Assembly (NCBI GenBank): GCA_016791145.1
Contig: JAEUNJ010000189.1
Coordinates: 1 to 64,000, forward strand
Origin: Rhodocyclaceae bacterium
Lineage (GTDB): Bacteria > Pseudomonadota > Gammaproteobacteria > Burkholderiales > Rhodocyclaceae
Length of the DNA stretch: 64,000 nucleotides
Direction: 5' to 3'
In this document: piece after piece, positions 10,474 through 40,199 of the stretch
How positions within the stretch are numbered: the stretch's first letter is position 1
Layout: each line of letters starts with the position of its first letter
Program-made: the position numbers and the translations under genes
The notes under the pieces: generated by a model
The model's input: the letters and a program-made list of their open reading frames with translations, nothing else
Told to the model about the DNA's origin: nothing
The model's database searches: none

Positions 10474-11940
10474 TCAATGCACCGTGCACACCATGCACGG
10501 ATCGAAGGAGCGCACGATGTGCTGCACGGCCAGCGGCGTCTTCTCGTCGTCGCCCACCGGTGCGCCTACCAGGGCCTGCTCCAGGGCGCCGGGCTGGCCG
10601 TTGCGGTCCCGGGGCGAGAAGTTCCAGGTGGTCGGGGCGATGATCTGGTAGTTCTGCAATTTCCCCTTGTGGATGCGCAGCCAGTGGCCCAGGCTGCCGC
10701 GCGCCGCCTCCGCGAGGCCTATCCCGTCGGCCTGGTCGGGGAGCCGCACGCTGTCGCAATAGGGCTCGCCGGGACGCAACGCCCGGGCCCAGCCTTCCAT
10801 CGCCGGGACGACGAGGGCGATCTCCAGGAGGCGGGCCAGCACCCGGGCCCGGACGCTGCCGCCCTGGCGGGACACCAGTTCGCGGACCAGGGGGTGCCCG
10901 GCGACCATCTGGCGAGCCAGCGCGCCGGTCTCCACCACGCGGTTGGCATAACGCGGCGCCTTGCACCAGGTGTAGGCATCCTCCTTGTCGGGCAGTGGCG
11001 CGGTGACCCCGGCGAACGGCGGCAGGGGGCCTTCCCCCTCCACCAGCCAGGCGTGGGTCGCGTCCTCGGCGATGGCGGCCGGGTCCATGGCCTCCACGGT
11101 CTCGCAATCGGTGAGGCCCCGGGCGAACAGGTGGCCGCCCGCCGCCGCCGGGTAGGCCCCGAAACTGAGGAAGCGATCCGTGGCGCGTCCCAGGGCACCC
11201 AGGTCCAGGTCATCGGCCACGGCGAGGAACATGCCCAGGTCGGAATCCGCGGCGCCCGGCTTGGCGCGCCACGCGGTGAGTTCGTCGAGGCTGGCGATGG
11301 AGGCCACCGATTCCAGCCGGTCGCCGAAGGTGACGCGCTCCAGGAAAGCGCGGAACTCCGCGATCATGAAGCCCAGGCGCAGGGGTTCGGCCGGCAGCAG
11401 GGCCCGCGTGGTGCCGCCGGGCTGCAGGGCCAGCGAATGGGGCCAGCGGCCGGCCATCAGGCCCATGATCTCCAGGAAGCGGGCGCGGGCCGGCAGGACC
11501 TGGCCCGCGGCCTGGCCGGTGACCGCCTTGAAGCGCCCGGCGACCCGCGGATGCCAGGGTCGCCCGGCGTAGGCATCCCGGGCGAAGTCCGGCATGAAGA
11601 AGAGGTAGAAGTGGGTCAGGTGGTCGGCCACGTTCTCGCAGGCATGGATCAGGTTCACCGCGAGGCGGCCATTGGGCGGGGGCGCGATGCCCGCGGCATT
11701 GGCGAGCGCGAAGGCGGCCGCCACCGACTGGGAAACCGAGCAGATGCCGCAGATGCGCGGCACGTAGACCAGGGCGTCGTGGGGATCGCGGCCCATCAGG
11801 ATCTGTTCGAAACCGCGATAGAGCGAGGCATTGACCCGCGCCGCGACGACGCGTCCGCCGGACACCTCAAGGCCGACTTCCAGGTCGCCTTCGACGCGGT
11901 TGAAGGGACCGACCAGCAGGCGGCGAGGCCCGGCCGTCAT
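10474..11940 (-). CDS. hoxC: Regulatory (H2-sensing) [NiFe]-hydrogenase large subunit
   Basis: A 488-residue large subunit. The N-terminal nickel motif reads RICGICSVSQ, with Gln where catalytic hydrogenases have His, a known trait of sensor hydrogenases. The C-terminal motif DPCMVCTVH is followed at once by the stop, so there is no cleavable extension and no protease step. With HoxB it forms the cytoplasmic H2 sensor that feeds hydrogenase gene control. The start ATG at 11940 (MTAGPRRLLVGPFNRVEGDL) fits the family N-terminus. It lies 109 bp after hoxB, last gene of the minus-strand cluster. No hoxJ kinase gene follows. Confidence 0.93.
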   Translation of the reverse strand: MTAGPRRLLVGPFNRVEGDLEVGLEVSGGRVVAARVNASLYRGFEQILMGRDPHDALVYVPRICGICSVSQSVAAAFALANAAGIAPPPNGRLAVNLIHACENVADHLTHFYLFFMPDFARDAYAGRPWHPRVAGRFKAVTGQAAGQVLPARARFLEIMGLMAGRWPHSLALQPGGTTRALLPAEPLRLGFMIAEFRAFLERVTFGDRLESVASIASLDELTAWRAKPGAADSDLGMFLAVADDLDLGALGRATDRFLSFGAYPAAAGGHLFARGLTDCETVEAMDPAAIAEDATHAWLVEGEGPLPPFAGVTAPLPDKEDAYTWCKAPRYANRVVETGALARQMVAGHPLVRELVSRQGGSVRARVLARLLEIALVVPAMEGWARALRPGEPYCDSVRLPDQADGIGLAEAARGSLGHWLRIHKGKLQNYQIIAPTTWNFSPRDRNGQPGALEQALVGAPVGDDEKTPLAVQHIVRSFDPCMVCTVH

Positions 11941-12049
11941 GGAACTTCCCTCCGTCCCGGTTCCCGGACAGGGGAATGACTGCGGTCCGCCGCGGCGCGG
12001 CTCCGGCTTCCCGGCGTCATCGTCCCCGCGGCGGATCCTCGGATGGCCT

Positions 12050-13056
12050 TCATTTCTGCCCCTTCTGTTCCGGCGGCACCCGCGGGTGGTCGGAGGTCGC
12101 GTTCTCGCGGACGCGGCGCGGCGTGGCCGACTTGGACAGGGCGGCCAGGGCCACGAACCAGGCCTTGGGCATGTCGGAGGGCAGGCCGATGGGGATGCCG
12201 GCCACCTTGGGCGTCTGGTGGAAGGGATGCCCCGGGTCCTCGAAGGCGGGGGCGGTGCAGTTGATGCAGGAGTAGCCGCCGCGCAGGCAGGAACCGCTGC
12301 CGTTCCACAGGCGCTGGTTGCAGTCGGCATGGGCCTGGGTGCCCTTGCAGCCCATGTGCTCCATCAGGCAGCCCAGGTCCGAGGGCTTCTCGGCGCTGGC
12401 CTTGAACTCGTAGTACTCGTTGCGCGGGCAGCCGTGGTGGACCAGGTGATCCGCGTAGAAGCGCGGGCGTCCCAGGTTGTCCAGGTCGCCTTCCGCCATC
12501 TGTCCCGAGGCCAGCAGGCAGAGGGTCAGCACAACCCATTCCGGATGGATTGGGCAGCCGGCCACGTTGACCACCGGCAATCCGTCGCCGGCCCGGAAGC
12601 CAGAACCGAGGAGGCCGCCCCGCTGGTGCCCGTCGTACTGGAGTCCGCAGGCGTCCGTCGGGTTGATGCCGCCGGACGTGATTCCGCCGAAGGCGGCGCA
12701 ACTGCCCACGGCGACCACGTGCCGCGCCCGGGCGGCCAGGCGGCGCACCCAGTCGATGGTGGGCACCCCGGTGCCCGAGAAGAGGTGGAAGCGTCCGGTG
12801 CCGCCGGGGCCGCGCAGCAGCGAGCCTTCGACGCAGAGCACGTCCAGGGGCCGTCGGCCTTCGGCGCAATCCTCTATCAGGGCGAGGGCCTCGCCGCCGC
12901 TTTCCTCGGACAGGGCCGGATGCCACAGGAAACGCAGCCCTGCCCCGGCGAGGCGGCCCGCCAGATCCTGGGTCTCGGCGCAGAGCAGGGACATGGTGCA
13001 GCCGCCGCACCCGCCGGACTGCAGCCAGAGGATGTTGGCCGGGCCGCCGGCGTCGG

Positions 13057-14514: not shown

Positions 14515-16295
14515 GCGGCGGCTTCCAGCGGGGGAACGGTCGGCGCCGCCGTCGCGCCGGCGCGGGGCTCCCGGTGCGGGGCCAGGTGGCGGGGGGTCCA
14601 GGAATGGGGCGACTTGCGCACGAAGTGCCAGCGGGCCACGTGGTAGCTGGGATCGAAGCCGTAGAAGTTGCGCCGCATCTCGGCCAGTTCCTCCGCCCGC
14701 CAGGCGGCCAGGGGCTTCGCCGCCTCGTCGGCGGCGCGCTGCGCCCGCTTGGCCTGCAGGCGCCGGGGCAGGTCGTCGGCGGCGGCCAGTTCGGCCGACC
14801 GGCGGGCCACGTCCACCCGGAAGGCGACCGGCTCGCCGGCCAGGCAGGCGTCGTAGAAGCCGCAGGCCACGGCCTCCCGCGCCAGCATGGGCAGGCGGTT
14901 CCTCATGATGCGCCGGGCGCCGTCCGCGCCTACGCGGGGAGGGAGCAGGTAGGTCCAGAACTCGGAGCCGTAGAGGTTGCCCATGTTGCGGTAATGCGGA
15001 TTCAGGACCACGCCGTTGCGCACCCAGACCAGGTCCGCCGCCCGGGCGAGGAAGCAGCCGCCGGCCCCGGCGTTGCCGCCCAGGGCGGCTACCGTGAGCC
15101 GGTCGTCGCAGCGCAGGAGGGCCTCGGCCAGGTCGTCCATCGCGTTGATGTTGGCCCAGGAGGCGTCGGCCGGGCTGTCGGCGTCGTCCGCCGCGGCCTC
15201 GATCAGGTTCAGGTGGATGCCGTTGGACCAGAAATCGCGGCCGCCGGCCAGCACGACGACGCGGGTGGGCCGGGTCCGCGCCCATTCGAAGGCGGCCTGA
15301 AGGCGCCGGCACTGGGCCGTGCCCATGGCGCCGTTGTAGAAGTCGAAGTGCAGGAAGCCGACGCCGCCGGCCTCCTCGTAGCGGATGTCCTGCCAGGTGG
15401 CGTGGTCCGCCGCCCACCAGCCGGGCAGGGGCAGGTCGGGCAGGGCGGCCGCCTCGGCGGCGAAGGCCACCGTCGCCGGCAGCTTGACGGCCACCTCAGC
15501 GTCGGCCCGTTTCGCGTGGCCGATCCAGACGGCCCCGTCGGTCGTGGCCCGCAGCAGCGCCGTCTCCCGCCGGCCGATGATTTCGCCGGGGCTCCCGCGC
15601 AGCCTCTCCTCCGGCCAGGCGTCGTAGAGGTGGCACGCGTGGCCGAAGAGGGCGTCCCGCACGCCCGGAAAGCCGTCCGCCGCCCGCAGCTTGGCGAGCA
15701 CGGTGGCCGTGTCGTCGCGCTGCCAGTGGATGGCCCGGTCCTCCTGGCGCATCAGGGGCCGCAGGCGGCCCCGGGGAGCGGCTTCCATCTCGCCGGGAAG
15801 CCGGGACTGCCAGCGGCCGGCCCGCCACTCGTCGAAACGGCCCACTGCCTCCAGCACCGCCGCGCAGGCGGCCTCGGTGACCTCCTGGCGGTAGAGGCTC
15901 GCCTTGGCCGCGGGACGCATGGGGAACCGGGCCTGGGCCCAGACGGGGCCGGCATCCATCGCGGCTTCCGCCTGCAGCACCGTGACGCCCCAGTCCCGCT
16001 CCCCGTCGCGGATCGCCCAGTCCAGCGCCGAGGGACCCCGATCGCCGATGATGCCCGGATGGACCACGAGGCAGGGCAGGCGGGACCAGATCGACTCGGG
16101 AATGGCCCGCTTCAGGAAGGGCGCCAGGACCAGGTCGGGCGCGAACAGGGCGACCGCCTCCTCGGCCACGGAATCGGCGATGTCCAGTTCCACGGCGAGC
16201 TCGTGGCCGCGCAGGCGCAGTTCCGAGTGGAGCCGCTGGGCCAGGCTGTTGAAGCTGTGGGTGAGGATCAGGATGCGCATGGGATCGACGGCCAT
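14511..16295 (-). CDS. hypX: Hydrogenase maturation factor HypX (CO-ligand synthesis under air)
   Basis: A 594-residue two-domain protein. The N-terminal half is a formyltetrahydrofolate-binding/transferase domain (HPGIIGDRGPSALDWAI). The C-terminal half is enoyl-CoA hydratase-like (GGNAGAGGCFLARAAD; GSEFWTYLLPPRVG). HypX makes the CO ligand of the NiFe site from a formyl group, which matters under aerobic growth, and fits the oxygen-tolerant HupSL here. Start at 16295 (MAVDPMRIL); Met at 16280 is an alternative. Its stop overlaps the hoxA start. A dispersed inverted repeat fills the 89-bp gap to hypE. Confidence 0.93.
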
Positions 16296-27118: not shown

Positions 27119-28918
27119 TCAGCGGACCTTGACCGTCGCCAGTTCGGCGCCGTCGGGGCTCATCACGTGGGTCGAGCAGGCCAGGCAGGGATCGAAGGAG
27201 TGGATCGTGCGCAGGATCTCCAGGGGCTGGTCCGCCTTGGCCAGCGGCGTGTTCATCAGCGAGGCCTCGAAGGCGCCGATCTGGCCCTTGGGGTCCCGCG
27301 GGCTGCCGTTCCAGGTGGTCGGCACGACGCACTGGTAGTTGTCGATCTTGGTGTCCTTGATCTTGATCCAGTGGCCCAGGGCACCCCGCGGCGCCTCGGT
27401 GAAGCCGGCGCCGTTGGCCTGCTTCGGCCAGGTGGCCGGATCCCACTTGGAGATGTTGGCCGTTGCCGTGTCGCCGGCCTTGATGGCCGCCATGAGCTTG
27501 TCGAACTGGCGGACCTGGAGGTCGGCGCAGTAGAGGGTCTCGATGCCGCGCGCCGCGGTGCGGCCGAGGGTCGAGAACAGGGCCGTGACGGGCACGTCCA
27601 GCTTCTTCAGGACCGCGTCGATGGTGTCCTTGATGAAGGGGTACTGCTTGGGCTGCACGTAGCCCAGCAGCATGCGGGACAGGCAGCCGACCTCCATGGC
27701 ATGGCCCTTCCAGCGCGGCGCCTTGAGCCAGGAGTACTTGGCCTCCTCGTCGAGCTGCTCGATCTTCGTCCGGGTGCCCTTGAAGTTCTTGCCCTCGGGC
27801 TTGTAGTTCGGCTCGGTGACGCCGTCGAAGGGATGCAGGCCCTTGGACTCGTCGGCGTACTTGTACCAGGAGTGGCTGACGAACTCCTGGATCTGGGCCG
27901 GATCCTTCAGGTCTACCGGGTGCACCGTCTTCAGGTCGCCGCCGACGATGGCGCCGCGCGGCAGCAGCAGGTTGGCCGGGCTGTAGTCGTTGGCCTTCTC
28001 CGGGATGTCGCCGTAGGAGAGGACGTTCTGGGAGGAGAGGCCGCCGCCGTAGAGCCAGCCCTTGTAGAAGGAGGCGATGGCCAGCAGGTCGGGGATGTAG
28101 ACCTGTTCGACGAATTCCTTGCAGCGGTCGATGATGCTCTTGACCAGGTTCAGCCGCTCCATGTTCAGGGCGCCGACGGCGCCGGTGTCATGGACGTTGA
28201 TGGGGCAGGGGACGCCGCCCACCAGCCAGTTCGGGTGCGGGTTCTTGCCGCCGAAGATGGTGTGGACCTTGACGATCTCCTTCTGGAAGTCGAGGGCTTC
28301 CAGGTAGTGGGCGACGGCCATCAGGTTGGCTTCCGGCGGCAGCTTGTAGGCCGGGTTGCCCCAGTAGCCGTTCATGAAGGGACCGAGCTGGCCGCTCTCC
28401 ACGAACTTCTTCAGGCGGTTCTGCAGGTCGCGGAAGTAGCCGGGGGACGACAGGGGCCAGTTGGAAATGCTCTGGGCCAGTTCCGAGGTCCGCTTCGGGT
28501 CGGCGGAAAGCGCCGATACCACGTCCACCCAGTCCAGCGCGTGCAGGTGGTAGAAGTGCACCAGGTGGTCGTGGATGTACAGGTTCAACTGCATCAGGTT
28601 GCGGATGGTGTTCGCGTTCTCGGGGATCTGGATGCCGAGGGCATCCTCCACCGCGCGTACCGAGGTCAGGGCGTGGGTGCCGGTGCAGACGCCGCAGATG
28701 CGTTCCGTGAAGGCCCAGGCGTCCCGCGGGTCGCGGCCCTTGAGGATCACCTCCAGGCCGCGCCACATGGTGCCCGTGGAGACGGCGTTGCGGATCACGT
28801 TGTTCGAGTCGAGGTTCACCTCGACCCGCAGGTGGCCCTCGATACGGCAGATCGGGTCGACCACCATGCGCTTGCCGGAATTGTCCAGCTTGAATCCTTG
28901 GGTTTCGTAAGCCCCCAT
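27119..28918 (-). CDS. hupL: Uptake [NiFe]-hydrogenase large subunit
   Basis: 599 residues, full family length. The nickel site is formed by [10 protein letters not shown] near the N-terminus and DPCLACSTH at the C-terminus. The 15-residue tail after that His ([15 protein letters not shown]) is the extension removed by HupD. It oxidises H2 in the periplasm after co-export with HupS. It starts one base after the hupS stop, and hupC follows after 21 bp. Confidence 0.96.
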
Positions 28919-28919
28919 T

Positions 28920-30008
28920 TCAGTTGCCTCCCTGTTGGTTTTCCTGGCTGTGGTTGATGCGCGCCCGCGAGAGCGCGCTCAGGCCGGCGTGGACCGCGAT
29001 GCCGGCGCCCACCACCGCGGCGGCGGTGCCGCCCACCTTGTCCGCGTTCGACTCGATGCCGAACTGCTTGATGTCGGTGACCCGGTCGTAGAAGCTGCCC
29101 TTGTCCCAGAAGCCGTCCTCCGAGCAGCCGATGCAGCCGTGGCCGGACTGGATCGGGAATGAGACGCCGCCGTTCCAGCGCACCGTCGAGCAGGCGTTGT
29201 AGGTCGTCGGGCCCTTGCAGCCCATCTTGTAGAGGCAGTAGCCGCGGCGCGCCGCGTCGTCGTCCCACTGCTCGACGAACTGGCCGGCGTCGAAATGGGG
29301 GCGGCGGTAGCACTTGTCGTGGATGCGCTGGCCGTAGAACATCTTCGGGCGGCCCTGGCGGTCCAGCTCGGGAATCCGGTCGAAGGTCAGCATGTAGGTG
29401 ACGACGCCGGTCATGACTTCCGCGATGGGCGGGCAGCCCGGGACGCGGACGATGGGCTTGCCGCTGATCACCTGGTGCACCGGCGTGGCCCGGGTCGGGT
29501 TCGGCTTGGCGGCTTGCACGCAGCCGTAGGAGGCGCAGGCGCCCCAGGAGATGACCGCCTTGGCGTCGGCGCAGGTCTCCTTCAGCACCTCGACGAAGGG
29601 GCGGCCGCCGTGGATGCAGAACATGCCGTCCTCGTTGAGGGGCGGGTTGCCCTCCACGGCGACGATGTAGTTGCCCTTGTACTTCTTCTTCACCTCCTCG
29701 ATGATCGCCTCCGCCTGGTGGCCGGCGGCGGCCATCAGCGTGTCGTCGTAGTCCAGCGAAAGCATCGACAGCACCACGTCCTTGGTCAGGGGGTGGGCGG
29801 AACGGATGAAGGACTCGGAGCAGCAGGTGCATTCGAGACCATGCAGCCAGATCACCGGCGTGCGCGGCTTGGTCTCCAGCGCGTGGGCGATCTTCGGCAC
29901 GAAGGTGGAACCCAGGCCCAGGGAGGAGGCCGTGAGGCTGCAGAACTTGATGAAGCTGCGCCGGGTGATTCCCTGCCGGCGCAGGACTTCGTAGAAGGTT
30001 TCGGTCAT
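28920..30008 (-). CDS. hupS: Uptake [NiFe]-hydrogenase small subunit, oxygen-tolerant type
   Basis: A 362-residue precursor with twin-arginine signal (RRSFIKF) and likely cleavage after AHA (residue 43). The mature chain then shows ECTCCSES (Cys17, 19, 20), GACASYGC (Cys115, Cys120) and Cys149. This is the six-cysteine set that holds the [4Fe-3S] proximal cluster of oxygen-tolerant membrane hydrogenases, with the same numbering as in R. eutropha HoxK. A C-terminal membrane helix (about 325-345) attaches it to HupC. ATG 30008 is chosen because it begins the Tat signal; the frame is open further upstream. Confidence 0.96.
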
Positions 30009-30083
30009 CGAGAGTCTCCTGTCGGTGTGTGCGCGCCGGTGCCGGTGGATGCTTCCCCGGTTCGCGGCGACACGAGGCCTTAA

Positions 30084-30099
30084 GCGCGAAGCGTGCCAA
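30084..30099 (-). promoter_or_regulatory. Sigma54-type promoter of hupSLC
   Basis: The minus strand reads TTGGCACGCTTCGCGC: a perfect -24 (TTGGCACG) and a -12 of GCGC that keeps the GG-N10-GC spacing. The start site would lie near 30072, about 64 bases before the hupS ATG. HoxA, encoded in the same cluster, is the expected activator. Confidence 0.7.
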
Positions 30100-30313
30100 G
30101 CCTTCCAATCTTGACGATGGACCGCCAAATAGTTGAGGGATAAACAGAAAATTCCGGGGCGGTCCCGGGTCGGGCGGGGGGGTGGTAAGCGCAACGACCA
30201 TCCGGGGGGCGCGAGTGGAAATCCGGTTGGCGGCCGTCGGGAAACTGCGGGAGGTCGAAACCCGCGGAAGCAGCAACGGCGGGGCTTTGCGGGGGAACGG
30301 GGAAGTTTCCGGG

Positions 30314-30877: not shown

Positions 30878-32041
30878 GTGGACAAGCAATCCGATTTCGC
30901 AATCGAGTCGTCGGTCGATTTCACGGCCGTCGAACGCCGGCTCGGCGTGTCGCGCCGGACCTTCCTGAAGTTCTGCACCGGGGTCGCCGCGTCCTTCGGA
31001 CTGGGGACCAAGGCCGCGTACGCCATGGCCCAGGCCATCGCCAATCCGGGGCGCCCGCCTGTCATCTGGCTGCACGGCCAGGAATGCACGGGTCCCACCG
31101 AATCCCTGCTGCGCTCCGAGCAGCCCTCCTTCGAGCACCTGATCCTCGACCTGATCTCCCTCGACTATCACCAGACGCTGGATGCGGGCGCCGGTCATCG
31201 CGTCGAGGAAATCAAGCGCGAGGCGATGAAGAAGCACCACGGCAAGTACCTGCTGGTGATCGAGGGCGCGATTCCCCTGGCCCAGAACGGCATCTTCTGC
31301 AAGATCGGCGGCCAGACCATGATGGACGCCACCAAGGAGGCCGCGGAGGGCGCCGCCGCCATCGTCGCCTTCGGCTCCTGCGCCAGCTGGGGCGGGGTGC
31401 AGTCGGCCTCGCCGAATCCGACCGGGGCCACCGGCGCGCCGCAGTTCCTCCAGGGCAAGACGGTGGTCACGATTCCCGGCTGTCCGCCGAATCCGGCCAA
31501 CTTCCTGGGCACGGTCCTCTATTTCGTCACCTACGGCAAGCTGCCGCCGATCGACGAGAAGGGACGGCCCAAGTGGGCCTACAGCCGCCTGATCCACGAG
31601 AACTGCTACCGCCGTCCGCACTTCGACGCCGGCCGCTTCGCCACCCAGTTCGGCGACGACGGGCATCGCCAGGGCTGGTGCCTCTACAAGCTGGGCTGCA
31701 AGGGTCCGGAGACCTACAACAACTGCCCGAGCCTGGAATACAACAACGTCGGCGGCGGCGTCTGGCCGATCGGCGTCGGCCATCCCTGCTTCGGCTGTTC
31801 GGAGCAGGGCACAGGCTTCAACAAGCCCATGTTCAGCCTCGCCGAGGTGAAGACCCATACGCCGCCCAATGCCTTCCCGAACATCGCCGACCGGCAGAAC
31901 CCGACCTCGTCGACGGTGGTCGCGGCGGCGGCGGTGGCCGGCGTGGCGGTGGGCGCCCTTCTCGGCGCGACGGCGGCGGCCGGCAAGAAACTCGACGGCA
32001 CGCAGGCGGAGGCGGGCAAGCCGGGCGACAAGGGAGCCTGA
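30878..32041 (+). CDS. hybO: Hyb-type [NiFe]-hydrogenase small subunit with Cys-to-Pro change at the proximal cluster
   Basis: A 387-residue HybO-like precursor with Tat signal (RRTFLKF). The GTG at 30878 follows an RBS (GGGGGAG); a TTG at 30848 is the alternative. Mature cleavage is probably after AQA (residue 53). Distal and medial cluster ligands are all present (His240, Cys243, Cys268, Cys274; Cys283, Cys304, Cys307), as are proximal Cys70, Cys168 and Cys202. However, the fourth proximal ligand is Pro73 (ECTGPTES; codon CCC at 31094-31096) where E. coli HybO has ECTGCTES. A C-terminal membrane helix is present (about 345-370). Electron transfer from the active site may be altered. Confidence 0.92.
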   Translation: MDKQSDFAIESSVDFTAVERRLGVSRRTFLKFCTGVAASFGLGTKAAYAMAQAIANPGRPPVIWLHGQECTGPTESLLRSEQPSFEHLILDLISLDYHQTLDAGAGHRVEEIKREAMKKHHGKYLLVIEGAIPLAQNGIFCKIGGQTMMDATKEAAEGAAAIVAFGSCASWGGVQSASPNPTGATGAPQFLQGKTVVTIPGCPPNPANFLGTVLYFVTYGKLPPIDEKGRPKWAYSRLIHENCYRRPHFDAGRFATQFGDDGHRQGWCLYKLGCKGPETYNNCPSLEYNNVGGGVWPIGVGHPCFGCSEQGTGFNKPMFSLAEVKTHTPPNAFPNIADRQNPTSSTVVAAAAVAGVAVGALLGATAAAGKKLDGTQAEAGKPGDKGA

Positions 32042-32043
32042 CC

Positions 32044-33027
32044 ATGGACCGGAGAAACTTCTTCAAGACCTCCCTCGGCGCCACGGTGGCGTCCGCGGCC
32101 GCCCTGGCGGCAGGGGGCGTTCAGGCCCGCCCCAACCTCGATCCGGCACCGGAGGCGGTGGGCATGCTCTACGACGCCACGCTGTGCGTCGGCTGCAAGG
32201 CCTGCGTGAGCAAGTGCAAGGAGGTCAACGGCATGCCGCCGGTGCCCATGGGGCAGGATACGCATGCCGACTTCGCGCTCGACCTGTCGGCGAAAACGCG
32301 GAACGTCATCAAGATCCATACCGAGGGCAAGGGCGCGGTCAAGGACGCGGCGGCCGACGGCTTTGCCTTCGAGAAGCGCAGCTGCATGCACTGCGTCGAT
32401 CCGGGCTGCGTCTCGGTGTGTCCGGTGTCGGCCCTGACCCGCCATCCGATGACCGGCATCGTCAGCTACAACAAGGACGCCTGCATCGGCTGCCGCACCT
32501 GCATGACCGGCTGCCCCTACAACGTGCCGCAGTACGACTACGACAACCCCTTCGGCCAGATCGTCAAGTGCGAGATGTGCAACCAGAAGGGCGTCGAGCG
32601 CATCGACAAGGGACTGATGACCGGCTGCGCTGAGGCATGCCCGACCGGCGCCACCCTGTTCGGTTCCCGCGGCGCGCTGCTGGCGGAGGCGAAGCGCCGC
32701 CTGGCCCTGAAGCCGGGCGAAACCTATGCCTATCCGCGCGGCGACGTGCGCAAGCCGGACAGCTTCCATGAAAAGGCCGTCCCGGGATACCAGAAGACGG
32801 TCTGGGGCGAAAAGGAGGCCGGCGGCACCAACGTCATGCACCTGTCGGCCATTCCCTACGACAAGCTGGGCATGCCGCCGCTGGGCGAGCGCTCGTATGC
32901 GTCGATCTCCGAGGGCGTGCAAAGCACCCTTTACAGCTACCTCGCTCTGCCGGTCGTGGCACTCGGCGGACTGACTTGGCTGGTCAAGCGCAATACCAGC
33001 GGTGAGAAGGAAGGGGGAGCCGAATGA
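32044..33027 (+). CDS. hybA: Periplasmic ferredoxin-like subunit (HybA)
   Basis: 327 residues with a Tat signal (MDRRNFFKTSLGATVASAAA) and four [4Fe-4S] motifs: CVGCKACVSKC, CMHCVDPGCVSVCP, CIGCRTCMTGCP, and a last set formed by CEMC and CAEACP. A C-terminal membrane helix (YSYLALPVVALGGLTWLV) anchors it. It relays electrons between HybO and the quinone-reacting HybB. It is two bp after hybO, and its stop overlaps the hybB start. Confidence 0.94.
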   Translation: MDRRNFFKTSLGATVASAAALAAGGVQARPNLDPAPEAVGMLYDATLCVGCKACVSKCKEVNGMPPVPMGQDTHADFALDLSAKTRNVIKIHTEGKGAVKDAAADGFAFEKRSCMHCVDPGCVSVCPVSALTRHPMTGIVSYNKDACIGCRTCMTGCPYNVPQYDYDNPFGQIVKCEMCNQKGVERIDKGLMTGCAEACPTGATLFGSRGALLAEAKRRLALKPGETYAYPRGDVRKPDSFHEKAVPGYQKTVWGEKEAGGTNVMHLSAIPYDKLGMPPLGERSYASISEGVQSTLYSYLALPVVALGGLTWLVKRNTSGEKEGGAE

Positions 33028-34199
33028 GCCACCACTACGAGGCGCTCGACCGTCGTCCGGTCCTGACGCCATTCTTCCTGCTGATGGTGGCGATCGCCGC
33101 GATCGGCACGATCTTCCTGATCACCCGCTTCGTCGCCGGCATGGGCGCGGTTGCCAACCTCAACGGCGGCTACCCGTGGGGTGTCTGGGTGATCTACGAC
33201 ATCGTGGTCGGCACCGCGCTGGCCTGCGGCGGTTATGCGCTGGCGGTGACGGTCTACGTGTTCAACAAGGGCAGGTACCACCCGCTGATCCGTCCGGCGC
33301 TGCTGACCAGCCTGCTCGGCTACGGCTTCGCCGGCTTCGGCGCGTTCGTGGACATGGGCCGCTACTGGAACGGCTACAACATCTTCCTGCCCTGGCACAT
33401 GAACACGCATGCGGTGATGCTGGAGGTCGGCCTGTGCGTCGCCGCCTACATTCTGGTCCTCTTCATCGAGTTCTCGCCGACGCTGCTGGAATGGCTGCGC
33501 AAGCAGACCGGCTGGCAGGTGCGGGCCGAGGCATGGCGCAAGCTGCTGGACAAGGGCCTGTTCTTCTTCATCGCGCTGGGCATCCTGCTGCCGACCATGC
33601 ACCAGTCCTCTCTCGGCAGCTTCCTGATCGCCATGGGCTACAAGGTGCACCCGTTATGGCAGACGCTGCACCTGCAGCCGCTGCTGGCCGTGCTGTCGGC
33701 CTTCACCATGGGCTTCGCCATCGTGATCTTCGAAGGCTCGCTGGTGACCACCGGCTTCAAGCGGCATCCGGAGACCCACCTGTTCACCGGCCTCGGCCGG
33801 ATCATGATGGGGCTCATCGCCGCCTTCCTGGCCTTCCGTTTCGGCTACCTGATCCTGATGGGCAAGGTCGGCGCGATGTTCGCCTTCGACCTCGGCAGCG
33901 TGATGTTCTGGATCGAGACGGCGCTGTTCGCCTACCCGCTCTACGTGCTCGCCTCCCCGGTCATGCGCGAGAACGGCAAGCACCTGCTCTACGCGGCTGT
34001 CAGCATGATCCTCGCCGGCTCGCTGTACCGCTTCGACGGTGCCCTCATCACCTACAACCCTGGCCCCGGCTACAGCTACTTCCCCGCCCTGCCGGAACTG
34101 ATCATGACCGTGGCGACCATCGCCACGGAGATCGCCCTCTACCTGTTCATCGTCAAGACCTTCCCGGTGCTGCCGCGCGAAGCGCACGCGACCGCCTGA
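33024..34199 (+). CDS. hybB: Integral membrane quinone-reacting subunit (HybB, NrfD family)
   Basis: 391 residues with about ten membrane helices. The NrfD/PsrC-type start GGYPWGVWVIYDIVVGTALACG and the conserved GIFLPTMHQSSLGS-like segment (here GILLPTMHQSSLGS) are visible. It contains no heme or cofactor motif. It couples HybOC to the quinone pool, in E. coli with charge translocation. It overlaps hybA by four bases (ATGA); a GTG-started large subunit follows. Confidence 0.94.
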   Translation: MSHHYEALDRRPVLTPFFLLMVAIAAIGTIFLITRFVAGMGAVANLNGGYPWGVWVIYDIVVGTALACGGYALAVTVYVFNKGRYHPLIRPALLTSLLGYGFAGFGAFVDMGRYWNGYNIFLPWHMNTHAVMLEVGLCVAAYILVLFIEFSPTLLEWLRKQTGWQVRAEAWRKLLDKGLFFFIALGILLPTMHQSSLGSFLIAMGYKVHPLWQTLHLQPLLAVLSAFTMGFAIVIFEGSLVTTGFKRHPETHLFTGLGRIMMGLIAAFLAFRFGYLILMGKVGAMFAFDLGSVMFWIETALFAYPLYVLASPVMRENGKHLLYAAVSMILAGSLYRFDGALITYNPGPGYSYFPALPELIMTVATIATEIALYLFIVKTFPVLPREAHATA

Positions 34200-34224: not shown

Positions 34225-35925
34225 GTGGCAAAACGTATTACGGTCGATCCCATCACCCGCATCGAGGGACACCTGCGCATCGACGTCGAAGTCGACAACG
34301 GCCATGTCACCAAGGCCTGGTCATCCGGCCAGATGTGGCGCGGCATCGAGAAGATCCTGGTCGGGCGCGATCCGCGCGAGGCCTGGTCCTATACCCAGCG
34401 CTTCTGCGGCGTGTGCACCACGGTGCACGCCATCACCTCGGTGCGCGCGGTCGAGAACGCGCTGCAGCTCGAAGTGCCGGTCAACGCGCAACTCATCCGC
34501 AACATCATCCAGACCGCGCACGCGGTGCAGGACCATATCGTCCACTTCTACCACCTGTCGGCGGTGGACTGGGTGGATGTCACTTCGGCGCTGAAGGCCA
34601 ATCCGGTCACCACGGCGAAGCTGGCCGAGTCGCTTTCCGACTGGCCGCTCAACGGGCCGCACGAGATGAAGGCCGTCCAGGACCGCCTGAAGACCTTCGT
34701 CGGCAGCGGCCAGCTCGGTCCCTTCGCCAGCGGCTTCTGGGGCCACCCGGCCATGAAGCTGCCGCCGGATGTCAATCTTCTCGCCGTCGCCCACTACATG
34801 CAGGCGCTGGACGTGCAGAACCTGGCCAACAAGATCGTCGCCATCCTCGGCGGCAAGAGCCCGCACATCCAGAACGTCGCCGTCGGCGGCGTCTCCAACT
34901 CCGTCAGCCACGATGCGCCCTCGGTGCTCAACATCGAGCGCCTGATGCTCATCAAGGGTTTCATCGACAAGCTCGACCAGTTCGTCAAGTCGACCTACCT
35001 CGTCGATGTGCCGGCGGTGGGCGCCTTCTACCTCGACTGGACGAAGTACGGCGCCGGCGTCACCAACTACCTCTCCGTCCCGGACTGTCCGCAGGACACC
35101 AAGGGCACCGAGTTCGACCTGCCCGGCGGCTACATCGACGCCGGTGACGTCGCGACCTACAAGCCGATCAAGACCTTCAACGACGCCTACTTCCGCGACG
35201 GCGTGGCGGAAAGCTCCAAGCACGCCTGGTACACCGGCGACAAGGCGCTGCATCCCTGGCAGGGCGAGACCGAGCCGCAATACACCGACTTCCAGGACAA
35301 CGGCAAGTATTCCTGGGTCAAGGCGCCCACCTTCTACGGCAAGCGCTGCGAGGTCGGGCCGCTGGCCGACGTGCATATCGGCCTTGCCGCCGGCAACAAG
35401 CGCTACGCCAAGTACCTCAACCAGGCGATCGGCACGCTGAAGGCGGTGGGCAAGCTCAACGACGTTCCGCTCAAGGCGCTGCAGTCCACCATCGGCCGCC
35501 ATGCGGCACGTGCCGTGCGCTGCGCTGTGATGATGGACACGCTGAAGGACCAGTGGGAAAAGCTGGTGGCCAACATCGGCAAGGAGCAGACCACCTTCAA
35601 CGCGCCCTCTTTCCCGAAGGGGGAGATCAAGGGCGTCGGCTTCCACCAGGCGCCGCGTGGCACGCTGTCGCACTGGGTGGTGATCGAGAACGGCAAGATC
35701 AAGAACTACCAGGCGGTCGTGCCGAGCACCTGGAACGCCGGCCCGCGGGATGCCAACGACCAGATCGGCCCCTACGAGTCCTCGCTGATGAACAACCCGG
35801 TGGCCGACCCCGAGAAGCCCCTGGAAGTGCTGCGAACGGTCCATTCCTTCGACCCCTGCATCGCCTGCGCGATCCACATGTTCGACAACGAGCAGCGGCC
35901 GATCGTCAAGGTGAAGGCCCTCTGA
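34225..35925 (+). CDS. hybC: Hyb-type [NiFe]-hydrogenase large subunit
   Basis: 566 residues, full HybC length. Nickel motifs RFCGVCTTVH and DPCIACAIH are intact, and a 15-residue C-terminal tail (MFDNEQRPIVKVKAL) is the cleavable extension. It starts with GTG at 34225 after a strong RBS (AAAGGAG). Base composition and codon use are like its neighbours. Catalytic ligands are normal here, in contrast to the altered small subunit, so the enzyme is not a plain pseudogene. Confidence 0.95.
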   Translation: MAKRITVDPITRIEGHLRIDVEVDNGHVTKAWSSGQMWRGIEKILVGRDPREAWSYTQRFCGVCTTVHAITSVRAVENALQLEVPVNAQLIRNIIQTAHAVQDHIVHFYHLSAVDWVDVTSALKANPVTTAKLAESLSDWPLNGPHEMKAVQDRLKTFVGSGQLGPFASGFWGHPAMKLPPDVNLLAVAHYMQALDVQNLANKIVAILGGKSPHIQNVAVGGVSNSVSHDAPSVLNIERLMLIKGFIDKLDQFVKSTYLVDVPAVGAFYLDWTKYGAGVTNYLSVPDCPQDTKGTEFDLPGGYIDAGDVATYKPIKTFNDAYFRDGVAESSKHAWYTGDKALHPWQGETEPQYTDFQDNGKYSWVKAPTFYGKRCEVGPLADVHIGLAAGNKRYAKYLNQAIGTLKAVGKLNDVPLKALQSTIGRHAARAVRCAVMMDTLKDQWEKLVANIGKEQTTFNAPSFPKGEIKGVGFHQAPRGTLSHWVVIENGKIKNYQAVVPSTWNAGPRDANDQIGPYESSLMNNPVADPEKPLEVLRTVHSFDPCIACAIHMFDNEQRPIVKVKAL

Positions 35926-36495
35926 GTGGAGACGCACGGCAAGGCCCCAGATGGCGCGGACACACCCGATATCGTCGTCATCGGCATGGGCAATGTGCTC
36001 ATGCAGGACGAGGGCATCGGCGTCCGCGCCGTAGAGGAACTGGAGGCGCTTTACGAGCTTCCCGCGCGTGTCCGCCTGGTCGACGGCGGGACTACCGGCA
36101 TGGAGCTTTTCGAGCCGATGCGCAACGCCGACTGCCTGGTTGTCGCCGATGCCGTGAACGCCGATCGCCCGCCCGGTGCGCTGGTGCGCATCGCCAACGA
36201 GGAAATCCGGGCCTTCTTCCAGACCAAGCTCTCGAACCACCAGCTCGGCCTGTCCGACCTGCTGGCCTTGCTGGCCTTCAAGGGCGAGACGCCCCGCCAC
36301 GTGGCGATCATCGGCATGGTGCCGCATTCGCTGCAGAACCGCCTCGGTCTCAGCGAACCCGCCGCCGCCGCCCTGGGCGACATGGTCGACCTGCTGGTGC
36401 GCGAACTGTCGCTCCTCGGGGTGGAAGTCCGGCCGCGGGGCGAGGTGCGGGCCGGCCACTGGCGCCGGCAGGCCGAACTGGAAGGCGCCGCCTGA
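35926..36495 (+). CDS. hybD: Large-subunit maturation endopeptidase for the Hyb enzyme (HybD)
   Basis: 189 residues of the HybD/HyaD protease family. Nickel-probing residues: Glu in NVLMQDEGIGVRA, Asp in VADAVNADRP and His in LSNHQLGLSD. It starts with GTG immediately after the hybC stop. It is distinct from HupD, which processes the uptake enzyme, so each large subunit has its own protease. Its stop overlaps the next start by one base. Confidence 0.93.
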   Translation: METHGKAPDGADTPDIVVIGMGNVLMQDEGIGVRAVEELEALYELPARVRLVDGGTTGMELFEPMRNADCLVVADAVNADRPPGALVRIANEEIRAFFQTKLSNHQLGLSDLLALLAFKGETPRHVAIIGMVPHSLQNRLGLSEPAAAALGDMVDLLVRELSLLGVEVRPRGEVRAGHWRRQAELEGAA

Positions 36496-36782
36496 TGTGC
36501 ATCGCCCTGCCCATGCAAGTGGTCCGCGGCGGGCCGGTGACGGCGCTTTGCCGTGGGCGCAACGGCGAGGAGGAGATCAACATGCTGCTGGTCGGCGAGC
36601 AGCCGGTGGGCACCTGGGTGCTGAGTTTCCTCGGCTGGGCCCGGGAGGTGATCAGCGAGGCGCACGCACGCGAAGTGGATCTGGCCCTGGATGGCCTGCA
36701 GGAGATCATGGACGGGGCCGATTCCATCGACGTGGATGGCTATTTCCCGGGGCTCGGTACGACGGCCGGGGAGGTCGCATGA
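36495..36782 (+). CDS. hybG: HypC-family chaperone for the Hyb enzyme (HybG-like)
   Basis: 95 residues: MCIALPMQVVRGG with the essential Cys2, then the HypC barrel (LLVGEQPVGTWVLSFLGWAREVI). The C-terminal tail is longer than in HypC. It carries the iron-ligand unit to the HybC precursor. It overlaps hybD by one base and the next gene by four. This is the third HypC paralogue of the window. Confidence 0.9.
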   Translation: MCIALPMQVVRGGPVTALCRGRNGEEEINMLLVGEQPVGTWVLSFLGWAREVISEAHAREVDLALDGLQEIMDGADSIDVDGYFPGLGTTAGEVA

Positions 36783-37330
36783 TCGACGGTGGCGCCACGC
36801 CCGCCGCCCGAGGCGAACTCGTGCGGGAGGTCTTCGAAAGCATTCATCGGGAGCAGATGGAAGGCCTGCCCCTGCTCAACAAGGCCTTGTCGGTGGCGAC
36901 GCTGGGATTCCAGGACTTTCGCGGGCGCACGCTGGGCATGCTGATCACGCCCTGGATGATGGGCCTCATGCTGCTGCCCAATGCCGAGGACGGGTGGGAG
37001 CGGTTGCCGCCGGGCCACAAGGCGACGCACGAGTTTCCCGGCGGCGCGCTGCGCTTCATGCTCAACGCGATCGATGGCCTCGGTCCTTACCAGATGCATT
37101 CGGTGCACTCTCCGGTCCATGTCTTTGCGGACCAGGCGGCCGCCATGGAAGCCGCCGCCGCCTTCCTCGGCCGCATCCTGGCGGACAGGGATCCGAACGC
37201 CGTGCCGGAGGATCCCGTGGACGAGGAACTCCTGGGGAAGATCCTGCGCGGCGAGCCGGTGCCGGAGATCGACGGACCGCCCGGCACGGCCACGGCGGCG
37301 ACGCCCCGGGCAGCCACGGGCGGGCGCTGA
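36779..37330 (+). CDS. hybE: HybE-family assembly chaperone
   Basis: 183 residues. Core motifs LGMLITPWMMGLMLLP and LGPYQMHSVHSPVHVFADQ match HybE/HupJ. It assists export-competent assembly of the Hyb dimer. The ATG overlaps the previous stop (ATGA). A C-terminal extension (from about residue 150, Pro/Ala-rich) is low complexity. It is the last gene of the hyb operon; a hairpin terminator follows 11 bp later. Confidence 0.9.
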   Translation: MIDGGATPAARGELVREVFESIHREQMEGLPLLNKALSVATLGFQDFRGRTLGMLITPWMMGLMLLPNAEDGWERLPPGHKATHEFPGGALRFMLNAIDGLGPYQMHSVHSPVHVFADQAAAMEAAAAFLGRILADRDPNAVPEDPVDEELLGKILRGEPVPEIDGPPGTATAATPRAATGGR

Positions 37331-37997: not shown

Positions 37998-40199
37998 ATG
38001 AATAGAGAGACCAAAACGGAGGCGAGGCAGGCCGCCTATTTCGAAGACGTGGAGAGGTGCGTCGACGCCATCATCGCCAAGGTGGGCAGGAACATCGTGT
38101 TCGGCATGCCCCTGGGCCTGGGCAAGCCCAACCACCTGGCGAATGCCCTGTACCAGCGGGTGAAGAACGACCCGACGATGAATCTGCGCATCCTCACGGC
38201 CCTGTCCCTGGAAGTGCCCGCCGGCAACAGCGACATGGAAAGGCGCTTCCTCGAACCCTTCGCCGAGCGGGTCTGGGGCAATTTCCCGGCCCTCGAGTAC
38301 CTGCGTGACCTGCGCCGCGGCACGCTGCCGCCGAACATCCAGATCTCCGAGTTCTTCATGAAGGCCGGCGTCTTCCTGGACAACCTGATCGAGCAGCAGA
38401 ACTACATCTCCAGCAACTACACCCACATCGCCCGGGACATGCTGGAGAACGGCGTCAACGTGATCGCCCAGATGGTCGGCAAGAAGGAGATCGACGGCAC
38501 GCCCTGGTACAGCCTTTCCTGCAACCCGGACGTGTCGCCCAACCTGGTGCCCATGCTGCGCGAGATGGAGGAGAAGGTGGGCTACAAGGTGGCGGTCGTG
38601 GCGGCGGTGAACAACGAACTGCCGTTCATGTACCACGATGCCATGGTGCCGGGGTCGATGTTCGACATGATCATCGACAACCCGTCCTACGACCACACCC
38701 TGTTCAGCACGCCCAACATGGCGGTCGAGATGGACGACTATCTGATCGGCATGCACGTCAGCACGCTGATCCGGGACGGCGGCACGCTGCAGATCGGCAT
38801 CGGCTCCCTGGGCGACGCCATCGCCTACTCGATGATCCTGCGCCAGAAGCACAACGACCAGTACAAGGCGGTCGTGGACGAACTGCAGGTGATGCAGAAG
38901 AGCGGCGACCTGGTGAAGCGCATCGGCGGCACGGACCGCTTCCGGGAGGGCCTCTACGGTTCCTCGGAGATGTTCGTGAACGGGCTGCTGGAGCTCTACA
39001 AGGCCGGCATCCTGCATCGCAAGGTCTATGACCACGTGGTCCTGCAGCGGCTGCTCAACGAGAAGAAGATTTCGGAAAAGGTCACGCCCGCCATGCTCGA
39101 GCACCTGGTGGTGTACGAGGCGGTGCGCCCGCGCCTGCGCCTGGCCGACCTGGATTTCCTGAAGCGCTACGGCGTCTTCAGGGCGGAGGTCACCCTCGCG
39201 AACGGAATGCTGCGCACCGGCGACGGCTGGGAGGTCGCCGCCGACCTGGGGGACGAGGCGGTGCTGAAGGAAGTGGCCGCCCATTGCCTGGGCGACCGCC
39301 TGAAGGGCGGCGTCCTGCTCCACGGGGGCTTCTTCCTGGGCCCGCGCAGCTTCTACGACACGCTGAAAGCCATGAGCGAGGAGGAGTGCAAGCAGTTCTG
39401 CATGACGACGGTGGACAACGTCAACCACCTCTACGGCAACCAGGAGCTGAAGGCGCTGCAACGGCGGGAGGGGCGCTTCATCAACACCTGCCTGATGGTC
39501 ACCCTGTCGGGCGGGGTGGTGTCGGACGGCCTGGAGGACGCCCGGGTGGTCAGCGGCGTCGGCGGCCAGTACAACTTCGTCTCCATGGCCCATGCCCTGC
39601 AGGACGGCCGGCTGGTCATGATGCTGCGCAGCCATCGCATCAAGGACGGCGTGGCCATGTCCAACATCGTCTGGAACTACGGGCACATGACCATCCCGCG
39701 CATCCTGCGGGACATCGTGGTCACCGAATACGGCATCGCCAACCTGCGCAGCAAGACCGACAAGGAGATCATGGCGGCCCTGCTGAACATCGCCGATTCC
39801 CGCTTCCAGGACGAGTTGCTGGCCAAGGCCAAGGAGGCGGGCAAGATGCCGGCCGACTACGAGATCCCGGAGCGCTACCGCAACAACTTCCCCGAGGCCC
39901 TGGAGGCGAAGTTCAAGGCCTGGCGGGAGAAGGGGCTCTTCCCGCCCTTCCCCTTCGGGAACGACTTCACCGAGGAGGAACTGATCCTGGCCAAGGCCCT
40001 GAAGGGGCTCAAGGCGAAGATGGCGAACAAGGTCGGAACCATGGCGGGCGGCATCCTGAACGTGATCCGTGGCGGCGACATCCCGCCCAAGGCCTTGCCC
40101 TACCTCAAGCGGATGAACCTGGAGCATCCGACGAACTTCAGGGACAAGGTCGTCCAGAGCCTGCTGGTGGCGGAACTGATCGAAGCCGGGCACGTCTGA
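37998..40199 (+). CDS. Long acetyl-CoA hydrolase/CoA-transferase family protein
   Basis: 733 residues, longer than the 430-640 usual in the acetyl-CoA hydrolase/transferase family. It contains GTLQIGIGSLGDAIAYSMILRQ, YGSSEMFVNGLLELYKAGI and SGVGGQYNFVSMAHALQDGR, plus VTEYGIANLRSKTDKE, all characteristic of family C-terminal halves. The middle region (about 400-480; LLHGGFFLGPRSFYDTLKAM) looks inserted. It probably moves CoA between short-chain acyl groups or hydrolyses acyl-CoA; the substrate is unknown. It is likely in an operon with the preceding small gene. Confidence 0.8.
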   Translation: MNRETKTEARQAAYFEDVERCVDAIIAKVGRNIVFGMPLGLGKPNHLANALYQRVKNDPTMNLRILTALSLEVPAGNSDMERRFLEPFAERVWGNFPALEYLRDLRRGTLPPNIQISEFFMKAGVFLDNLIEQQNYISSNYTHIARDMLENGVNVIAQMVGKKEIDGTPWYSLSCNPDVSPNLVPMLREMEEKVGYKVAVVAAVNNELPFMYHDAMVPGSMFDMIIDNPSYDHTLFSTPNMAVEMDDYLIGMHVSTLIRDGGTLQIGIGSLGDAIAYSMILRQKHNDQYKAVVDELQVMQKSGDLVKRIGGTDRFREGLYGSSEMFVNGLLELYKAGILHRKVYDHVVLQRLLNEKKISEKVTPAMLEHLVVYEAVRPRLRLADLDFLKRYGVFRAEVTLANGMLRTGDGWEVAADLGDEAVLKEVAAHCLGDRLKGGVLLHGGFFLGPRSFYDTLKAMSEEECKQFCMTTVDNVNHLYGNQELKALQRREGRFINTCLMVTLSGGVVSDGLEDARVVSGVGGQYNFVSMAHALQDGRLVMMLRSHRIKDGVAMSNIVWNYGHMTIPRILRDIVVTEYGIANLRSKTDKEIMAALLNIADSRFQDELLAKAKEAGKMPADYEIPERYRNNFPEALEAKFKAWREKGLFPPFPFGNDFTEEELILAKALKGLKAKMANKVGTMAGGILNVIRGGDIPPKALPYLKRMNLEHPTNFRDKVVQSLLVAELIEAGHV

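Follow-up and report, generated by a model that had tools for sequence, protein, structure and literature searches.

In [NiFe] hydrogenases, catalytic bias and the response to oxygen are thought to depend in part on the proximal cluster, and most tests of this so far have relied on engineered point mutants. In AH, the actinobacterial-type hydrogenase of Ralstonia eutropha (HofK, 5aa5), this cluster is a [4Fe-4S] centre held by three Cys and one Asp. Huc, a group 2a enzyme of Mycobacterium smegmatis, has Asn at the same proximal position (ACSGNTMS in our alignment); all three of its clusters are [3Fe-4S] by cryo-EM and EPR, and the potentials of such clusters are in general about 250 mV higher (PMC10017518). 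Nostoc punctiforme HupS also carries a natural Asn at proximal position 2 and has been reported as [4Fe-4S] (PMC4070099); the cluster type therefore cannot be read off from this residue alone. The A. macleodii hydrogenase keeps its activity with Asp or Asn at the second proximal position, and a 2014 list of residues found naturally at this ligand position includes Asn and Asp but not Pro (PMC4070099). Nostoc HupSL with its proximal cluster engineered from [4Fe-4S] to [3Fe-4S] works in cells, and the replacement was accompanied by raised H2 production there (PMC5040170), a change named C12P (PMC9919214). In uptake hydrogenases the medial [3Fe-4S] cluster naturally has a Pro where a ligating Cys would otherwise stand (P238 in D. 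fructosovorans; PMC3701524).

Here we describe a clade of enzymes resembling E. coli Hyd-2 (HybOABC, group 1c) in which Pro takes the place of the second of the two Cys in the proximal CxxC. Our search of the openly accessible literature, with subscription papers outside its scope, found no report of a natural Pro at this proximal position. This, we suggest, is the new part, as Asn and Asp there were already known. We take C12 of the Nostoc variant to be the first Cys of the motif, hence a different site from the Pro73 discussed below; that variant is moreover engineered and of group 2a, whereas the Pro73 clade is natural and of group 1c. The medial Pro of group 1 enzymes is similar in occupying the place of a ligating Cys, but Pro73 is proximal, next to the NiFe centre.

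The window, the whole stretch of DNA analysed, comprises 64,000 nucleotides of a Rhodocyclaceae bacterium contig (JAEUNJ010000189.1, positions 1 to 64,000). Its hydrogenase genes and their neighbours are as follows.

10480-13054, minus strand: group 2b-type regulatory (H2-sensing) hydrogenase subunits, with a GGCGGC-type small subunit
14517-16295, minus strand: HypX-like protein with formyltransferase N and enoyl-CoA hydratase domains (Pfam), among hypDEF genes
27119-30194, minus strand: group 1d hydrogenase, O2-tolerant, six-Cys motif ECTCCSES, divergent from the hyb operon
30878-32041, plus strand: hybO-like small subunit, 387 amino acids, GTG start, TGA stop, intact, with a Tat-type leader
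32044-33027, plus strand: hybA, Fe-S electron transfer subunit (NF008134, 453 bits, over the cut-off)
33024-34199, plus strand: hybB, integral membrane quinone-reactive subunit (NF008133, 481 bits, over the cut-off)
34225-35925, plus strand: hybC, large subunit with the NiFe site (NF007778, 851 bits, under the equivalog cut-off of 969)
35926-36495, plus strand: hybD, maturation endopeptidase (TIGR00072, over the cut-off)
36495-36782, plus strand: hypC/hybG-type chaperone (TIGR00074, over the cut-off)
36779-37330, plus strand: hybE, assembly chaperone (TIGR03993, over the cut-off)
37998-40199, plus strand: large ORF resembling acetyl-CoA hydrolase/CoA-transferase, directly downstream of the hyb operon and well under every equivalog cut-off

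The operon is thus complete (hybO-A-B-C-D-hypC-hybE) and shares with E. coli Hyd-2 the hybOABCD order, hybE, a hypC-type gene and the HybA and HybB partners, which suggest that electrons are passed to quinone. HybO is about 57% identical to its E. coli counterpart and scores 472 bits with TIGR00391, and its closest solved structures are the hydrogenase-2 small subunits 5xvb, 6ehq and 6gam. With the profile for hydrogenase 2 small subunits (NF007779) it reaches 492 bits, under the equivalog cut-off of 659; HybC likewise falls short of its own. In trees with group 1d, 1e-like and Bacteroidales outgroups, the small subunit nests with Hyb sequences at 100/100 support and the large subunit at 100. 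Gene content and tree position are those of group 1c, and the small subunit departs from the Hyd-2 type in lacking the four-Cys proximal [4Fe-4S] site. With three proximal Cys remaining, we treat the enzyme as a functionally Hyd-2-like variant and not as a standard member.

The residues of HybO and HybC on which the following analysis turns are listed here.

31085-31096, plus strand: C70-T-G-P73, the proximal CxxC with Pro replacing the second Cys (from the sequence read and relatives)
31172-31189, plus strand: Q99-T-L-D102-A-G104, a loop after strand 2 that changed along with Pro73 (alignment and motif scan)
31262-31264, plus strand: Glu129, counterpart of Hyd-1/MBH Glu76 and a possible oxygen ligand (from conservation)
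31379-31381, plus strand: Cys168, proximal cluster ligand, invariant in Pro-type and Cys-type sequences
31481-31483, plus strand: Cys202, proximal cluster ligand, invariant in Pro-type and Cys-type sequences
34378-34404, plus strand: HybC E52...Y56...F60, changes fixed in the Pro clade, next to the first of the CxxC motifs that bind Ni (alignment)

Residues 69-76 of HybO read ECTGPTES where Hyd-2 has ECTGCTES, and codon 73 (31094-31096) is CCC; re-reading the gene confirmed both, as they had been given in the original prediction. The claim that the remaining cluster ligands are intact also held: C70, C168 and C202 are left at the proximal site, and the distal (H240, C243, C268, C274) and medial (C283, C304, C307, plus the usual medial Pro297) ligands, the same as in Hyd-2, are all present. 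The counterparts of C19 and C120 of the O2-tolerant group 1d enzymes are both Gly (ECTGP, SWGGV), which rules out the [4Fe-3S] proximal cluster of that type. In having Pro or Asn at position 73 the clade shares with Huc a non-Cys residue at the fourth-ligand position, although by trees and operon it belongs to group 1c and not 2a; Huc further differs in being a soluble octamer with HucM, in its all-[3Fe-4S] relay and in the absence of the loop motif described below. The AH chain has a non-Cys residue (Asp) at the aligned position too, but its Asp can ligate iron and Pro cannot; in our clade that position is Pro, or once Asn, with an Asp instead at position 102 in another loop.

Related small subunits covering the site (n = 35) have Pro in 34 cases and Asn in one, encoded by CCC (23), CCT (6), CCG (4), CCA (1) and, for the Asn, AAC (1). 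Cys is found at this position in all 23 Cys-type Hyb sequences and all 13 outgroup sequences. The single Asn belongs to a Lake Erken MAG (L013, 6001-7149), which keeps Q99, D102 and G104; Asn is also the residue found in Huc and Nostoc HupS. Scanning 84,980 species genomes recovered about 27 close relatives of 78-90% identity, nearly all with Pro; the scan used query-typical peptides, so that it was biased to close kin. The matches came from freshwater Burkholderiales-type MAGs and from Ca. Thiodiazotropha/Chromatiales, and homologues of 57% identity or less that covered the site had Cys. Among 399 genomes of the window's own order the motif occurs in the window alone, and in the rest of its family the closest Hyb homologues carry Cys. 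The survey of 369 gammaproteobacterial genomes yielded six true Pro-type loci in six families; a seventh match was discarded as a chance motif in a CoA-disulfide-reductase-like protein (G565). Three further Pro-type loci were found in 249 genomes of the phylum, all in one non-gammaproteobacterial family (f245), whose genomes each have 9-11 magnetochrome-domain matches and are for that reason considered magnetotactic and Magnetococcia-like. Carriers therefore include freshwater Burkholderiales, Ca. Thiodiazotropha, four other gammaproteobacterial families and these magnetotactic genomes, and on these assignments the Pro73 clade spans two classes of Pseudomonadota. Where the contig is long enough, the other Pro-type loci keep hybA, hybB, hybC and mostly hybD, and hybC is 80-92% identical among most of them.

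In the magnetotactic genome G843 a Pro-type hybO occurs together with a Cys-type one (L122 and L126). The Cys-type copy has the sequence HETLCAAAG, which gives it an additional Cys at 102.

These relatives bear directly on whether Pro73 is real and the gene sound. A sequencing or assembly error has a negligible chance of explaining the residue: 35 independent sequences use five different codons at position 73, the window's codon is at least two changes away from TGC or TGT, and 34 Pro and one Asn among the relatives rule such an error out, as had been expected from the window's codon. A lone strain mutation, the outcome that would have undone the original prediction, is excluded by the same homologue alignment. 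That the gene is decaying, the enzyme inactive or the proximal cluster lost might be argued from general chemistry, in that Pro has no side-chain ligand for iron, yet this too is very improbable. By the Nei-Gojobori method, pairwise dN/dS lies at 0.015-0.13 in hybO, 0.014-0.106 in hybC and 0.024-0.17 in hybA, and dS reaches 1.3, so that every operon gene tested shows purifying selection, which for hybO is strong. All other cluster ligands are retained, the operon is intact with its maturation genes, and the Pro-type sequences form a single clade across two classes. We thus reject decay, on dN/dS and on the conservation of Pro in relatives. The earlier proposal of a functional variant in a complete operon with maturation genes is supported on both counts, by the clade-wide Pro and purifying selection and by profile matches for hybABCD, hypC and hybE.

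Pro73 does not occur alone. HQTLDxGAG, which contains Q99, D102 and G104, is present in 35/35 Pro/Asn-type sequences, and D102 in none of the 36 Cys-type ones. Cys-type Hyb sequences (n = 23) have E99, F, M or S at 102 and A104 (one G), with E99 and S102 beside C73 in E. coli Hyd-2 itself; other group 1 types have D, H, N, V or E at 99 and M or Q at 102. Few columns fully split the Pro-type from the Cys-type once the divergent Pro-type locus L093 is counted, the clearest being P73, Q99, D102 and G104, along with some C-terminal ones. When the same 369 gammaproteobacterial genomes were scanned with HQTLDxGAG only, blind to position 73, the same six Pro-type loci were returned and no others. The large subunit has changed as well: Pro-type HybC has E52 and F60 (21/21), where Cys-type HybC has D and I (18/18), and F60 immediately precedes the first Ni-binding Cys (RFCGVC versus RICGVC). 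The original prediction contained neither the clade-wide sharing of Pro nor these coupled loop and large-subunit changes, nor the Asn and Asp on record for this ligand position. Co-occurrence within one clade shows linkage, which is not by itself compensation. The loop carrying D102, after the second strand of the flavodoxin-like domain, presumably adjoins the CxxC loop, as judged from knowledge of the fold, and D102 could serve as a new cluster ligand, act in the second sphere or relay protons in place of E99. AlphaFold2 modelling of mature HybO with 47 relatives gave a mean pLDDT of 60.9, falling below 50 at mature residues 26-56, so that the model is unreliable just around these loops.

In the large-subunit tree all Pro-type operons, L093 included, form one clade (SH-aLRT 99.7). 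With the four motif columns removed, the small-subunit tree keeps the main Pro clade together and places L093 among the Cys-types, but uniting all Pro/Asn rows costs 6.5 log units (p-AU 0.19). Two independent origins of Pro were therefore set aside, as the AU test allows one clade and the large-subunit tree unites L093 with the rest. Since all Pro-type operons are united there, a single origin of Pro followed by one change from Pro to Asn is the simplest reading.

What kind of cluster does such a site hold? A [3Fe-4S] cluster, an external ligand and three-Cys ligation, the outcomes foreseen in the original prediction, are the right list to consider. We slightly favour, at a little better than even, a membrane-bound Hyd-2-like enzyme whose proximal cluster is held by three Cys and is most likely [3Fe-4S]. 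Here the clade would have dispensed with the second CxxC cysteine, leaving C70, C168 and C202 alone to hold the cluster; as Pro offers no side-chain ligand, and Asn once stands in its stead as in Huc, the fourth corner would be without a protein thiolate. We infer three-Cys ligation from these residues, and by analogy with Huc a [3Fe-4S] cluster is moderately likely, the same solution as at the medial cluster of group 1 enzymes. The reading is supported by Pro or Asn in 35/35 sequences, by dN/dS, by the intact operon, by a single origin, by the shared retrieval of the same six loci with either motif and by the small-subunit alignment, where the Pro-type clade shows no new Cys or His around position 73; Huc, the medial Pro and the engineered Nostoc HupSL serve as precedents. 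E99Q, x102D and A104G in the loop and D52E and I60F in HybC would then be co-adaptations fitting the pocket to the altered cluster. The strict conservation of D102 hints otherwise, being superfluous in an enzyme of the Huc type and pointing to a role as ligand or in proton transfer.

That conservation also speaks for the strongest competing account, which keeps a [4Fe-4S] cluster at the proximal site: Pro73 vacates space, and the fourth ligand is the Asp102 carboxylate, Glu129 or water/hydroxide. We consider it a serious possibility, though with the chances somewhat against it. E99Q together with x102D shifts one acid three residues along a loop that should sit beside the CxxC loop; the A. macleodii hydrogenase is active with Asp at proximal position 1 or 2 (PMC4070099), the AH chain 5aa5 reads CDGD with Asp at the aligned position, and HupS with Asn is, as noted, reported to be [4Fe-4S]. 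Glu129 is found in 29/29 Pro-type sequences, but also as E in 17 and D in 3 of the Cys-type, and in an MBH variant Glu76 is close enough to Fe4 for a hydrogen bond (PMC10583674). Against this account, Huc has a [3Fe-4S] cluster with Asn at this site and lacks an Asp aligned to D102. We also know of no hydrogenase that takes a cluster ligand from this loop. Its most specific form, with the fourth ligand moved from the CxxC loop to Asp102 and Pro filling the gap to give a natural 3Cys+1Asp [4Fe-4S] cluster, is a more tentative proposal still; if true, the geometry of the cluster would be without known precedent, and it would go together with the changes next to the Ni ligands. An all-Cys cluster, with the non-ligand Cys141 or another thiolate swinging in as the fourth ligand, is improbable: C141 is available in 29/29 Pro-type small subunits, but it is equally conserved beside Cys73 (20/20 Cys-type), so it is not a compensating gain, and the Pro-type clade has not gained any Cys.

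If the three-Cys [3Fe-4S] cluster is correct, the proximal potential would rise, by roughly 250 mV if it behaves like other [3Fe-4S]/[4Fe-4S] pairs, which would flatten the relay near the active site and shift the bias of the enzyme, in a direction that can be suggested only faintly. The large subunit retains the His of the PH motif, and the position matching residue 73 of Hyd-1, located between the active site and the proximal cluster, keeps the Gln of O2-sensitive enzymes (PMC5040170). The enzyme of the window probably oxidises H2. Of nine Pro-type genomes checked, six, including that of the window, encode a GGCGGC group 2b sensor-type small subunit 6-20 kb from the Pro-type hybO on one contig, and HypX is linked to aerobic CO-ligand synthesis; sensor-type small subunits, the O2-tolerant hydrogenase and the hyp and HypX-like genes nearby would fit an H2-oxidising enzyme in micro-oxic organisms.

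The Pro-type clade offers a natural experiment, in which changed cluster ligation comes with matching residues and Cys-type sisters for comparison. The two hybO types of G843 form a natural pair within one genome, and Q99, D102 and G104 with HybC F60 are ready targets for swaps. Annotation tools label the Pro-type proteins as ordinary hydrogenases and the change goes unflagged.

Other departures at proximal sites were seen in passing. In the window, two membrane-bound hydrogenases, both with unusual proximal clusters, are encoded back to back. A Pro-type genome contains a further small subunit with ECTACTES, Ala replacing a near-universal Gly (L130, G462:C233:475-1524), and a group 2-like small subunit reads ACSGDTLS, with Asp at the second proximal Cys position (L136, G846:C14:117596-118453).
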